DNA from: a virus
Virus record (IMG/VR): IMGVR_UViG_3300034375_000265
Location: 1-32,395 of that record
Strand: one strand, 5' to 3'
DNA length: 32,395 nucleotides
The notes beneath the pieces are model-generated. The model had not been told where the DNA came from and did no database searches. It worked only from the letters and a program-made list of their open reading frames with translations. Shown piece after piece: positions 2,885 through 32,395 of this stretch. Within the stretch, counting starts at the first letter, position 1, and each line of letters starts with the position of its first letter. The position numbers were made by a program, and so were the translations under genes.

Positions 2885-3354
2885 TTATTGCTCCTCTTCA
2901 CTTTAGTTCCTGTAAATTTAATAAATTTCTGATGCCTATTTTTCCCCTTTTCCTTTAGCCATTCTTCAGGTATGATCCTATCATAATAACGAAAGCCATA
3001 CTTTATGCACCACTCTGCGTATGTAGACTTAGCACCCTTGCGTAGCTTTCGTCTGCTGTTTTCAAAGACAAACCGAATATCTAATTTAGGATGCTGACGT
3101 TTGATTGCAAGGTGCTTTCTTCTGTCAGCCGCTGTAAACATTCCTTTTGTCTCAATGATTATACCATTGGACAGCACGAAGTCTGGAGTATATGTCCTGT
3201 AAGCAAGGTCTTCCCATTCAATCTTAATAGACTCGTAATCAAATTTTACTTTCAGGTCTGTAAGATATTCAGAAATCTTATGCTCAAGGCCACTACGAAA
3301 TCCTAACTTACGTGCTGCCCTAAATCGTTTCGCATTATGCACTGCTGTATTCAC
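2881..3354 (-). CDS. T7 endonuclease I-like Holliday junction resolvase
   Basis: This protein cleaves branched DNA (four-way junctions, replication intermediates) before packaging and in recombination. The match to T7 gp3 is clear: a conserved block YTPDFVLSNGIIIETKG at residues 55-71, then RKHLAIKRQHPKLDIRFVF and an ending with IPEEWLKEKGK. The catalytic set E24, D58, E68, K70 corresponds to T7 E20, D55, E65, K67. Length (157 aa) is close to T7 gp3 (149 aa). The basic C-terminal tail fits DNA binding. Its ATG at 3354 overlaps the end of the nuclease gene at 3335 by 20 nt, and it sits with SSB-like and RecB/Cas4-like genes as a recombination module. Confidence 0.93.
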   Translation of the reverse strand: MNTAVHNAKRFRAARKLGFRSGLEHKISEYLTDLKVKFDYESIKIEWEDLAYRTYTPDFVLSNGIIIETKGMFTAADRRKHLAIKRQHPKLDIRFVFENSRRKLRKGAKSTYAEWCIKYGFRYYDRIIPEEWLKEKGKNRHQKFIKFTGTKVKRSNK

Positions 3355-4195
3355 TCGCTAGTTCAACGTACGAAACAATCTTTGGTTCCTTTGCCTGTGA
3401 CTTCACTGCTGGCAACTCTTTCATGTTAGGCCAACATGCTTTGCGATAGTCACAGAACGAACACTCTTTGGCTAGGACTTTGTTACCAGTCGGCTTGCCT
3501 CTGAATGTTTCTTCTACAGGTTCAAAGCAACGCTGAAACTTATTGTCATCTACAGTCTTGACTGTTTGTACAATCTTCAACATTTCTTTTTCAGATTCAA
3601 CATTAGTTGCTGGTACATATTTAAAGTTACCGTTTGCTTTATTAACTACCCACCAGCCACCTGGTTTTAAGCCAGTTGCTGTAGCATAGCCAACAAGTTG
3701 TCCGACATATCCGAAAGCATCTCCATCACGAAGAGTTTCAAATGACTCAAACTTGTTACGATAAGACCAATCAGATGCTGATTTAACATCATCAACAGCA
3801 CCATCAATAACAAGGTCATATGTTCCATTAATGGTATGCTCTCCAATATCAAGAGATACATTTTCGGAATCACCATACTCTACTCCTGCTTCAGTTAATA
3901 AACCTTTGAACACTGCTTCAACGATGTCGCCAAGCATCATGTTCATTACGAATGTGGTTGGGCGAGGCAGGGCAGTCTCTGGTTTATTCTTCTCAAACCA
4001 TAACTGGCAGGTTGGCCTACCAATATTTGACATGCGAAGTTTAAACTCTCTACTACCTGACTCACCAAACTGGCGAAGCACAGCCTGTCGGACATCTTCC
4101 GCAATCTGATTTGCAGTTTTTTCCGACATGGTAGACTTCCCATTGGAAGCCTTCTCCATGTAACTATGCAACGCCAGTTCAGCTGGATGGTTCAT
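3335..4195 (-). CDS. PD-(D/E)XK exonuclease, Cas4/RecB-like with putative Fe-S cluster
   Basis: This is a probable DNA end-processing exonuclease of the RecB/Cas4 superfamily. Visible nuclease motifs are GTYDLVID with D127, VDDVKSAS with D136 and K138, and a YVGQLVGY segment with Q166 and Y170 (QxxxY motif). One cysteine at C63 and three near the C-terminus (C245, C248, C254; CxxC-x5-C) have the spacing of the 4Fe-4S lock found in Cas4 and AddB. Length (286 aa) fits a stand-alone phage exonuclease. It lies between the SSB-like gene (1-nt gap) and endonuclease I, the standard phage recombination or host-DNA degradation neighbourhood. No cas1/cas2 or CRISPR array is present, so this is not an adaptation gene. 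Confidence 0.85.
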   Translation of the reverse strand: MNHPAELALHSYMEKASNGKSTMSEKTANQIAEDVRQAVLRQFGESGSREFKLRMSNIGRPTCQLWFEKNKPETALPRPTTFVMNMMLGDIVEAVFKGLLTEAGVEYGDSENVSLDIGEHTINGTYDLVIDGAVDDVKSASDWSYRNKFESFETLRDGDAFGYVGQLVGYATATGLKPGGWWVVNKANGNFKYVPATNVESEKEMLKIVQTVKTVDDNKFQRCFEPVEETFRGKPTGNKVLAKECSFCDYRKACWPNMKELPAVKSQAKEPKIVSYVELASEYSSA

Positions 4196-15776: not shown

Positions 15777-16757
15777 TGTGTCACCCCTTGGTCTAGTTAT
15801 AGATTAAGAAATGGGGGTTTTGTGCATGGCATACACTACCGCTGCCGATAGTTACACTCTACCCCCGTCCTGGCACTCTCCGACCTACTGGATACCCTCT
15901 CGCTTCGACCTCACCTTATGGCTAACTAGGCGCATAGGCGTTACAGTAGGTCAGGTAATTAGGCGCACTTCTGGTGCATTATGGTCTGTACCACCCACAA
16001 GGATTTCATGTGTCCACTTGCCATCGTTCTATGCCTACACTTTTTGGGTGCTTTTGGGGCTTTTGCTGGTGATGGATACCTAGCATTTTTTGAATGTCTG
16101 GTTTTTTGGTCCTTTCGTTTTGTTTCAGTCTCTAAATCCTAATTCGCTTTATTCGGTTAGTCAATTCTTTTTTTATTCCCTTGTCGAAACTGTATCAATT
16201 TGCCGTGGCGTTTAGATATTCAGTTTCTAGATGCTTTTGGCTTTATCGGTATCAGATAATTTTTGTAAGACTCTAATCTGTCTTGCCGTTCATCTTGGTT
16301 AAATCCTATCATGAAGAAAAAAACAAAGTAAAGAAAAAAGATTTGTAATGTTTTCAATAAGTTAAGATGGTATGCCTGGTTAAGTTTTTGTTTTTATTGA
16401 TAAAATTATTTTTAAGAAAAATTTTTTATTTTTTATATATAAAGTATAAAGGGATTTGTTCATGGTGTGTTCTTAAATGTTAGGCGTCACTAAATTGTTG
16501 GGGTATGGCTAAGATTATATGCATCGCCGTTATAGTTTTGTGTTGCCTTTCATTATTCGATGCATCTATTGACTATGGTATGGCGTCAATTCATAGGATA
16601 TCCATTGACTATCCACCACCAACCCCTTGAAAATGCTGCTTTTTTTATAGAATGCTCGCGCAATTCCACCATGCGCTGGCGCGAATAAGATAAAAAGTGT
16701 CGCAATCAGGCGCAAATCGCGCGGATCAAAGGTGGCGGGCAGGGGCCACACCCCGGG

Positions 16758-16771
16758 TATACGTACGTATA
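16758..16771. repeat. 14-bp perfect palindrome TATACGTACGTATA
   Basis: The sequence is identical to its reverse complement over 14 bp and lies between the GC-rich segment and the rightward promoter. Perfect even-length palindromes of this size in phage control regions usually bind a dimeric regulator, so it is a candidate operator. Confidence 0.55.
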
Positions 16772-16836
16772 TATGGAGAAATACACAGATTGGGAAAATT
16801 AAGTGTTAACCACAAAGGCAACTCATACACAACCTA

Positions 16837-16853
16837 TGCACAAGTATTGTGCA
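16837..16853. repeat. 7-3-7 inverted repeat TGCACAA-GTA-TTGTGCA
   Basis: This is a perfect inverted repeat with 3-bp spacer, 58 bp upstream of the -35 box of the rightward promoter. Symmetry and position fit an operator for a dimeric helix-turn-helix repressor or activator. No candidate regulator gene is seen in the window. Confidence 0.55.
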
Positions 16854-16858
16854 ACAGT

Positions 16859-16873
16859 GCCTAAAAAATAGGC
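16859..16873. repeat. 5-5-5 inverted repeat GCCTA-AAAAA-TAGGC
   Basis: An inverted repeat with an A5 spacer immediately follows the 16837-16853 palindrome. It could be a second protein-binding site with a bent A-tract centre. The stem is too short to be a convincing terminator and no T-run follows. Confidence 0.4.
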
Positions 16874-16910
16874 AACTTATGATAATTGCTGCGACATATG
16901 CAGTTTATGC

Positions 16911-16939
16911 TTGACACGATTTTCGGGGTATGGTATAAC
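16911..16939 (+). promoter_or_regulatory. Sigma-70 promoter for the rightward genes
   Basis: A perfect -35 box TTGACA (16911-16916), a 17-bp spacer and a -10 box TATAAC (16934-16939) form a near-consensus host-type promoter, starting transcription around 16946. It would drive the small genes from 17122 and probably the lytic and head genes, giving a leader of about 175 nt that contains the ACATTA repeat array. No phage RNA polymerase gene is in the window, consistent with use of host RNA polymerase. Confidence 0.8.
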
Positions 16940-16952
16940 ATATATAAAATAA

Positions 16953-17064
16953 AACATTAGATGTTCTACATTAAATAAAGAAACATAGATGTAAGAACAT
17001 TAGATGTTAAAGACATTAAATGAAAACATTAAATATAGATAAACTTGTTAAAGACATTTAATGT
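16953..17064 (+). repeat. Array of ACATTA(G/A)ATG(T) repeats, iteron- or operator-like
   Basis: At least seven related units lie in 112 bp: AACATTAGATGTT (16953-16965), ACATTAAATAA (16968-16978), AACATAGATGT (16982-16992), AACATTAGATGTT (16996-17008), ACATTAAATG (17013-17022), AACATTAAATA (17025-17035) and the perfect palindrome ACATTTAATGT (17054-17064). Several are inverted repeats of AACAT/ATGTT around a short centre. Spacing of about 13-17 bp between unit starts puts the first units near one helical turn or a little more apart. The array lies just downstream of the 16911 promoter, where bound protein would block transcription; alternatively it is a replication iteron set. Confidence 0.7.
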
Positions 17065-17121
17065 TACATCCAATATACCCCATATAGACTAAATTTCGTA
17101 TTTCCAAAAAAGTAGTTGACA

Positions 17122-31218: not shown

Positions 31219-31296
31219 TAAACCACAATCAGTTGGCCTACCCATCCCCCACCCGACAGGTGTGGCTACGTTGGCCCCAACAAGGAGTAAAATAAA
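31219..31296 (+). promoter_or_regulatory. Structured leader before the scaffold gene
   Basis: This 78-nt gap is unusually long for the rightward block. It is C-rich, contains a CACC-cgaca-GGTG hairpin (31250-31262) and a GTTGG/CCAAC inverted repeat (31270-31281), followed by AAGGAG (31282-31287) 9 nt before the scaffold ATG. The 12-mer AGTTGGCCTACC (31231-31242) recurs inverted at 32315-32326. It may control scaffold translation or mRNA processing. No promoter boxes are seen. Confidence 0.4.
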
Positions 31297-32175
31297 ATGG
31301 CAGAGTCTGCTACAATTATGGCTGAAGAAATGCAGCCTGAAAAGAAAGTCGCGTTTGCAAATCGTAAGTATACTAACGAAGAAAAGCGCAAAATGGAAGA
31401 AGAAGAACTTGAGCAGTTACTCAAGGAGCAAAGAGGTGAAGTAGAACAAGAATCTTCTGAACCAGAAGAAGAAGAACCAACCAACGCTGAAGAAAAAACC
31501 TTTAAGAAGCGTTACTCTGATTTGCGTAGACATCAGCAGAAACAGGCTGAAGAGTTTAAAGAGGAAATCGAAAAACTCAAGTCTCAACTAAATGCAGCAA
31601 CAAAAAAAGAAATGAGACTGCCTAAGTCAGATGAAGACTTAGAAAGTTGGGCTAAACAATACCCAGATGTTGCTGCAATCGTAGAAACAATTGCTATCAA
31701 AAAAGCGAAAGAACAGGCAGATAGCCTAGAAGAACGCATGAAAGTAATTGACGATATGCAGTACACAGCAAAGAAAGAAAAAGCTGAAGCAGAACTTATG
31801 CGACTGCATCCAGACTTTGACGAAATTCGTGACAGCGATGAGTTCCATGAATGGGCAGAAGAACAGCCTAAGTGGGTACAAGACGCACTGTATGAAAATG
31901 ACAATGATGCTAAGTCAGCAGCAAGAGCAATTGATTTGTACAAGGCTGACAAAGGTATGTCAAGTAAAAAGTCTGCATCAGATAAGTCTGCCGCAAAATC
32001 TGTCGATTCTCGTAGGTCACGCAGCAAACCACAAGATGATGGTTCTGGTACATACATGAAAGAGTCACAAGTTCAAAAGATGTCGCCTCAAGAATATGAA
32101 GCGAAATCTGATGAAATCATGGAAGCTATCCGTAGTGGAAAGTTTATCTATGATATATCTGGTTCAGCCAGATAA
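31297..32175 (+). CDS. Capsid scaffolding protein
   Basis: The 292-residue protein is strongly charged and almost wholly helical: an acidic region (KMEEEELEQLLKEQRGEVEQ, PEEEEPTNAEEK), a coiled coil (RYSDLRRHQQKQAEEFKEEI through about residue 100), a middle helical region with KEKAEAELMRLHPDFDEIRD, and a basic, Ser/Lys-rich C-terminal part ending with a helix (SPQEYEAKSDEIMEAI). This composition, absence of cysteines and position directly after portal/internal protein and before the expected major capsid gene are typical of podovirus scaffolds, which guide procapsid assembly and leave before DNA enters. AAGGAG precedes the ATG by 9 nt. Confidence 0.87.
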   Translation: MAESATIMAEEMQPEKKVAFANRKYTNEEKRKMEEEELEQLLKEQRGEVEQESSEPEEEEPTNAEEKTFKKRYSDLRRHQQKQAEEFKEEIEKLKSQLNAATKKEMRLPKSDEDLESWAKQYPDVAAIVETIAIKKAKEQADSLEERMKVIDDMQYTAKKEKAEAELMRLHPDFDEIRDSDEFHEWAEEQPKWVQDALYENDNDAKSAARAIDLYKADKGMSSKKSASDKSAAKSVDSRRSRSKPQDDGSGTYMKESQVQKMSPQEYEAKSDEIMEAIRSGKFIYDISGSAR

Positions 32176-32183
32176 AAAAAGTG

Positions 32184-32211
32184 TTGACAAATAGTTATTT
32201 TTTAGTATAAC
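32184..32211 (+). promoter_or_regulatory. Sigma-70-type promoter facing the major capsid gene
   Basis: TTGACA (32184-32189), a 16-bp spacer and TATAAC (32206-32211) form a strong promoter right after the scaffold stop. The boxes are identical to those of the promoter at 16911-16939. Transcription would begin near 32218. It presumably boosts expression of the major capsid protein, the most abundant virion protein, from within the late operon. Confidence 0.75.
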
Positions 32212-32225
32212 TATATACAACATTA

Positions 32226-32255
32226 GTGTGGGCGTATTGCGCGATATGCCTACAC
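32226..32255 (+). promoter_or_regulatory. 12-bp stem-loop at the 5' end of the capsid transcript
   Basis: GTGTGGGCGTAT (32226-32237) pairs with ATATGCCTACAC (32244-32255) across the loop TGCGCG, giving 12 bp with two G-U pairs. It begins only about 8 nt after the predicted transcription start, a place where hairpins stabilise mRNAs. The 3' arm contains the ATG (32246-32248) of a 20-codon ORF, which would therefore be hidden in the stem. Confidence 0.6.
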
Positions 32256-32308
32256 AACCCGCAAACAACCTCAGTCTTACGGATTACCTGACGAACATGG
32301 CCCGTTGA
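32246..32308 (+). CDS. 20-codon ORF in the capsid leader: upstream peptide or broken capsid N-terminus
   Basis: ATG 32246 opens MPTQPANNLSLTDYLTNMAR and then stops at TGA 32308. The style (MPT.PAN.LSLTDY) is reminiscent of N-termini of phage major capsid proteins that I recall, which continue with D-P-x-G after this point. There is no Shine-Dalgarno sequence. It could be a regulatory upstream ORF, or the first exon of a capsid gene interrupted by an intron. The continuing gene is outside the window, so this cannot be settled. Confidence 0.35.
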   Translation: MPTQPANNLSLTDYLTNMAR

Positions 32309-32331
32309 ATATCTGGTAGGCCAACTAGATA

Positions 32332-32384
32332 AGATACGCACCCATAGTGAATCAGCCTCTGATTAGTCTGGTGAGTTTGTATCT
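32332..32384 (+). ncRNA. Nested stem structure in the capsid leader
   Basis: Three coaxial helices can form: AGATAC (32332-32337) with GTATCT (32379-32384); CACC (32339-32342) with GGTG (32370-32373); AATCAG (32350-32355) with CTGATT (32359-32364) closing a 3-nt loop. All pairs are perfect and properly nested. It follows the 20-codon ORF and precedes an ATGCC at the window end. It could be a translational control element or the start of a group I intron. Confidence 0.45.
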
Positions 32385-32395
32385 GTTTAAATGCC

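Follow-up and report, generated by a model that had tools for sequence, protein, structure and literature searches.

What kind of RNA stands in front of the major shell gene at the 3' end of this virus record, which was analysed over its whole length of 32,395 bases and is called the window here? The window, part of the genome of an HMO-2011-type podophage, is cut within the 5' leader of the coat gene. Phages of this type have been described as a dominant and broadly distributed marine viral group (PMC9038755), and searches by term of the open-literature text of two HMO-2011-type genome papers (PMC9038755, PMC6918029) returned no mention of a promoter or a regulatory RNA. The final 10 kb of the window matched Puniceispirillum phage HMO-2011 at 79% over 50% of the length, and the gene order was that of HMO-2011: terminase, portal, a long protein, a 292-aa protein, and the coat gene just beyond the window end, preceded in HMO-2011 by a 240-nt gap 5' of the CDS. 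PHROGs annotates the coat protein as major head protein; the 292-aa product is, as judged by its position only, probably the scaffold protein (Table 1).

The initial annotation had placed a strong promoter and a hairpin at the beginning of the coat transcript, and both were borne out. Promoter boxes of the form TTGACN, 15 to 18 nt, TATAA were present in 76/78 related leaders (a scan with a -10 rule requiring a final T misses the TATAAC box of the window), and the 5' hairpin P1 folded with a z of -4.7 (0/200 shuffles). P1 varied in sequence among leaders, was their least conserved part, and by alignment was missing in leader L052. The 20-codon ORF, which had been likened to a capsid N-terminus, is present but not meaningful: 71/102 homologous leaders were without an in-frame ATG, and in the window the ATG is buried in the stem of the 5' hairpin and has no ribosome-binding site, which argues against control by a leader peptide. 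In one relative (L206, MW202701), an HNH endonuclease gene at 2997-3566 lies within the coat leader and separates the promoter and 5' hairpin from the core of the leader, which despite this insertion still immediately precedes the coat gene.

When 35 leaders from the window's clade were aligned, they supported a single long irregular hairpin at 32261-32380, built in the order P2a, P2b, loop UUAC/CC, helix h1, a GA-rich middle, helix h2, loop CC/CAC, P3 and P4 (Table 1). In this core of ~125 nt, two internal loops, each with NUAC opposite CC, lie face to face and flank a central helix. Within the clade, whose sequences are related so that counts are not independent events, 96.6% of 984 cells were paired compared to 31-37% when partners were slid, 12 pairs had changed on both sides, and 0/500 shuffles reached these values. 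The minimum-energy fold of 32259-32386 alone held every supported helix, and its energy was ordinary (z -0.9); the evidence for the core fold is covariation, not stability.

Table 1. Features of the scaffold-coat region of the window; positions are those of the whole stretch.
Feature	Position	Strand	Basis
Second RNA of the same build: GUUGG, CCUAC, CCAUC, CC, apical hairpin, CUAC, GUUGG, CC, CCAAC	31232..31281	+	descriptor, covariation
Shine-Dalgarno AAGGAG, adjoining the scaffold-side element	31282..31287	+	sequence
292-aa gene before the coat gene, probable scaffold	31297..32175	+	PHROG 13678, family of unknown function
Sigma70-type promoter of the coat transcript: TTGACA (32184-32189), 16 nt, TATAAC (32206-32211)	32184..32211	+	sequence; relatives
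P1, 5' terminal hairpin, 13 bp, loop GCGC (4 nt)	32226..32255	+	folding energy; alignment
20-codon ORF, judged not a gene	32246..32308	+	homologous leaders
P2a 5' strand GCAAAC, pairs 32375-32380	32261..32266	+	100% of cells paired
P2b 5' strand CGGA, pairs 32358-32361	32280..32283	+	92% paired
Module 1 long side UUAC, opposite CC 32356-32357	32284..32287	+	nearly invariant
Central helix h1 5' strand CUGA, pairs UCAG 32352-32355	32288..32291	+	covariation; other clades
Central helix h2 5' strand AUGG, pairs CCAU 32342-32345	32297..32300	+	AGG/CCU, CGG/CCG etc. elsewhere
Module 2 short side CC, opposite CAC 32339-32341	32301..32302	+	nearly invariant
P3 5' strand CGU, pairs ACG 32336-32338	32303..32305	+	100% paired; double changes at all three pairs
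P4 apical hairpin, 8 bp, loop AGGCCA 32318-32323 with palindrome GGCC	32310..32331	+	double changes, 6/8 pairs
Second strand: h2 3', linker, h1 3', module 1 CC	32342..32357	+	alignment, covariation
P2 3' strand and conserved AUCUGU	32358..32386	+	SD-pairing strand in CRP-603 and Rhizobium-phage clades, not shown in window's clade

This fold differs from the one drawn from the window alone. The pairing of TGGCC (32298-32302) with GGCCA (32319-32323) was without covariation: the loop of relatives becomes GCGC, GAUC or GUAC while the upstream GGCC is kept. The triple nested helix drawn at 32332-32384 likewise is not the fold that evolution supports, nor did covariation back AATCAG-CCT-CTGATT (32350-32364), which makes a strong local hairpin in the window. 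A hammerhead-like core (CUGANGA...GAA), seen by eye, was dropped, because HMO-2011 and CRP-345 do not retain CUGANGA. The idea that the P4 dyad is a DNA operator was also rejected, because the P4 stem retains G.U pairs (26/33 sequences at one pair), which break the symmetry of DNA but not the pairing of RNA. The AUCUGU directly behind P2 (32381-32386 in the window) was invariant in the 35 leaders, and AUCUGA and AUCUAU recur in other clades; no pairing partner was found for it.

The same build recurred in other clades, and changes between clades are the stronger part of the evidence. Loci fetched with the coat proteins of CRP-603, Rhizobium phage RHph_N3_13 and CRP-3 gave, together with the window's clade, 211 leaders. 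A descriptor of two strands, NAC-C/U...G/A-CC, whose ends pair mutually, plus P2 and P3, fitted 79% of these leaders compared to 0.5% of 633 dinucleotide-shuffled sequences; about a fifth of the leaders failed, and as the descriptor requires pairing, the test is this shuffle comparison, not the pair counts. Across clades each helix showed 12-23 pair types, with h1 reading CUG/CAG, CUA/UAG, CUC/GAG, CAG/CUG, UCA/UGA or CUAA/UUAG, and P3 reading CGU/ACG, CAG/CUG, CAU/AUG, CUU/AAG, UGU/ACA, UAC/GUA and more, and only the loop bases and the topology stayed constant. In several other clades P1 carries a third CC/NUAC module (19/128 compared to 3/640 shuffled). Rhizobium-phage leaders, in which the strands seemed swapped, had suggested a circular permutation, which was rejected since the core is pseudo-symmetric and the same topology accounts for them. 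On this evidence, which is comparative throughout, it is almost certain that the RNA family is real, and the feature is read as the core of a conserved cis-regulatory RNA with which the coat mRNA begins.

The position of the element was constant as well. Whole-genome scans found it once in each genome, beside the coat gene (descriptor scan of HMO-2011, most of CRP-3 and CRP-603, and the window; covariance-model scan of ten phage genomes, with rough E-values). In 78 further viral and metagenome contigs found by a short pattern, the model matched once per contig, and the core lay directly before the coat ORF in 78/78, one contig being cut before the ATG. The start of the coat ORF was confirmed 23-51 nt behind the core in 75/78 of these contigs; in two of the remaining three the same coat N-terminus is cut by the contig end, and the third ends before the ATG. 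The element also remained with the coat gene in L030, L042, L061 and L068, despite a gene inserted behind the scaffold gene. Pelagibacter phages among the relatives had no coat leader and carried the scaffold-side hairpin described below only. Beyond the window end, sister contigs run ...GCCAATAATAGGAGAAATATCATGGCTTTT, and in the nearest relatives the sequence goes on as ...AAATGCCAATAATAGGAGAAATATCATGGC. The continuation in the sister contigs places the expected coat ATG ~19 nt beyond base 32395, and the ATG at the window end, noted earlier as the next ATG and as lacking a ribosome-binding site, is only leader sequence.

A second RNA of the same build stands at the probable scaffold gene. In leader L050 it reads UGG, CUAC, CUAACC, CC, CCA, then ACAC, then UGG, CUAC, GGUUAG, CC, CCA, followed by UAAGGAG. 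A scaffold-side descriptor fitted 87/143 leaders compared to 8/1430 shuffled sequences, and in most leaders the element ended 9-18 nt before the ATG, touching the Shine-Dalgarno (SD) sequence. Covariation was measured on an anchored parse that was not fitted to pairing, with partners swapped between sequences as the control. The outer helix was paired in 97.7% of cells compared to 86.2% when swapped, the central helix in 97.0% compared to 82.2%, and the apical helix in 96.0% compared to 87.9% (0/1000 permutations in each case). Single or double versions were present in all HMO-type clades examined, and the Pelagibacter phages appear, by eye, to have scaffold-side hairpins as well; the scaffold leaders of CRP-603, CRP-9 and CRP-738 carry a single-module hairpin with one 4x2 internal loop. 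By eye, no promoter was seen at the scaffold-side element in the window, and therefore this copy cannot be accounted for by a role that depends on a transcript's 5' end. In Aeromonas phage 1233 (L216), whose host is not an alphaproteobacterium, a hairpin UAG, ACAC, CGUACAUCCUGUACG, CC, CUA just before position 2027 precedes a probable scaffold gene and looks like a distant single module.

The link between the coat-leader core and translation varied among clades. In predicted folds of the CRP-603 clade, the 3' strand of P2 (CCUCUUU...GUGGAUAUG) pairs with CAUAUCU...AAAGG(AG), hiding the SD with a mean probability of 0.81. Own pairs in this SD helix were stronger than swapped pairs (z -6.2, 0/2000), and the Rhizobium-phage clade showed the same trend (z -2.3, n=8). 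Because the SD helix and P2 share a strand, formation of the element and sequestration of the SD are mutually exclusive in these two clades, and element formation should therefore free the SD. The same covariation test found no SD-sequestering alternative in the window's clade (z +1.8), where the predicted pairing of the SD is mostly with coat coding sequence. Intrinsic terminators were rejected as a general platform, with terminator-like hairpins between core and coat SD in 0/35 leaders of the HMO clade and 9/77 distinct segments elsewhere. Some roseophage relatives (L377-L385, L421, L423, L437, L438) have such hairpins, which are possibly attenuators. A conserved core whose link to expression varies has the look of cis-regulatory RNAs; the virus probably tunes the amounts of its shell proteins with a kind of RNA switch that is not yet catalogued.

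We give about half of our confidence to the view that the coat and scaffold RNAs are a pair of translational operators under the control of a single trans-acting factor, which is most likely an assembly protein of the phage. The NUAC/CC modules would be the putative binding sites of this factor, which would most likely be the scaffold or the coat protein and would set the translation of both genes, so that shell and scaffold proteins are kept in proportion. Two points make a protein the more likely ligand: the smallest unit consists of one small internal loop next to the SD, and both genes that share the module make, or probably make, assembly proteins. Phages are known to use autogenous translational operators, such as the R17/MS2 coat operator and the T4 gp43, gp32 and RegA sites, as do ribosomal-protein leaders, and the scaffold protein of P22 limits its own synthesis post-transcriptionally. 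Like these operators, the RNAs of the window are hairpins with conserved unpaired bases at or near the SD of a phage structural gene; unlike them, they have paired NUAC/CC modules, with a different fold and sequence, and one motif is common to two genes, the coat gene being preceded by a large version close to the promoter. The RNAs add to the structured families one that is absent from Rfam and whose internal loop is, unusually, repeated. With a module shared by scaffold and coat genes, the question of how dsDNA phages balance their shell proteins becomes directly testable, since the RNAs (both short), the bases for mutation and two or three candidate proteins for binding are named.

The apical loop of the coat leader gives a further lead. 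A 4-nt palindrome was present in 16/24 distinct P4 loops of 5-11 nt, compared to 5.0 expected (sd 1.9; 0/5000 letter shuffles), in a set of related sequences that includes a few manually entered elements. The palindrome varies (GGCC, GCGC, GAUC, GUAC, AGCU, UGCA), and such change is the trace expected from selection for pairing between RNA copies; it thus suggests that coat leaders may dimerise through kissing P4 loops. Loop-loop pairing of RNA copies is known from phi29 pRNA and retroviral dimer-initiation hairpins, although the element of the window, unlike phi29 pRNA, is an mRNA leader and not a packaging-motor RNA. Counter to dimerisation, several P4 loops read GGCA or GGCG, and P4 is absent in some elements (L236 and most Rhizobium phages). 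An RNA assembly checkpoint in a dsDNA phage, with a shared twofold-symmetric module, homodimers of the coat leader, and one assembly protein that would read both mRNAs and set the scaffold:coat ratio as procapsids fill, is a doubtful but conceivable extension.

The operator pair has to be weighed against other accounts of the same RNAs. The coat copy, unlike the scaffold copy, is at a transcript 5' end, a position that other mechanisms would also explain. The Pelagibacter phages without a coat leader, the leaders that miss the descriptor and the negative SD test in the window's clade likewise count against the operator pair. A constitutive leader, in which the 5' hairpin and core, with no ligand involved, shield from decay the late mRNA that is most abundant and leave the ribosome site accessible, would fit the promoter directly upstream, the hairpin within ~10 nt of the expected start and a downstream gene that encodes the major shell protein. 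However, it leaves unexplained the near-invariant sequences of the internal loops and the promoterless copy at the internal scaffold SD, and P1 is the part conserved least and lost in L052; we consider this account unlikely.

A riboswitch is in our judgement quite unlikely. Here the double module would bind a small molecule, perhaps two given its pseudo-twofold symmetry, and would switch coat and scaffold genes through clade-specific expression platforms. As in translational riboswitches, a conserved core is joined to a variable platform ahead of the SD, able in some clades to conceal it, with an SD-sequestering hairpin in two of them and terminator-like hairpins in some others. In contrast to riboswitches, the module also stands alone as a hairpin with a single internal loop, and the one 4x2 loop of the CRP-603, CRP-9 and CRP-738 scaffold units is small for a metabolite pocket; moreover, the module is confined to morphogenesis genes and no Rfam riboswitch matched.

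Antitermination of the put type, in which the nascent leader would bind host RNA polymerase and permit passage through the ~20-kb late operon, is very unlikely, even though the site lies right behind the promoter of a long operon. The put RNAs of HK022 are two stem-loops of ~70 nt with important unpaired bases, putL directly behind the promoter PL and putR ~270 nt further on (PMC9378689), and so resemble the coat leader as structured RNAs behind a phage promoter. In contrast to the RNA of the window, they belong to the early operons of an E. coli phage and have no copy at an SD. The scaffold copy, however, is without a promoter and adjoins an SD, and the covariation of the SD strand points to translation; the descriptor found no element in HK022 24-36 kb, which is a weak test.

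That the element is a site for RNase III or other processing between the scaffold and coat messages, giving the coat mRNA a defined 5' end, would account for a long irregular hairpin between two genes, but the promoter already supplies a 5' end in the HMO clade. Loop sequences of RNase III sites are not expected to persist over such divergence, and we hold this explanation to be highly improbable.

The self-splicing intron, translational bypass and leader peptide of the initial annotation retain next to no probability: every relative read has an uninterrupted coat gene that carries an SD of its own and a complete N-terminus, which leaves no place for an intron or bypass, and conservation of the 20-codon ORF was not seen. 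Neither the window nor any of 14 relatives matched an Rfam 15 family at gathering threshold, with nothing convincing down to E 10, and group I/II intron models gave none up to E 10 over the leader stretches; past the window end these searches covered the relatives only. What had been named as speaking against a functional leader was thus found for the coat start, which is clean, for the intron core, which is missing, and for the ORF, and the opposite was found for the hairpins, which are strongly conserved; the idea of a control device survives, in a form other than a leader peptide.

Further observations concern the surroundings of the element. Seven relatives (L030, L031, L041, L042, L061, L062, L068) carry an additional ORF that overlaps the stop of the scaffold gene (ATGA type) and is followed by the promoter-leader-coat unit. 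Metagenome-assembled genomes gave 3 pattern matches, two of which matched the model, and these are probably phage contigs binned with them. Elsewhere in the window, ~1.3 kb at 15800-17100 between oppositely directed gene blocks holds no convincing long ORF, and base composition shifts sharply there (GC 0.27-0.49).
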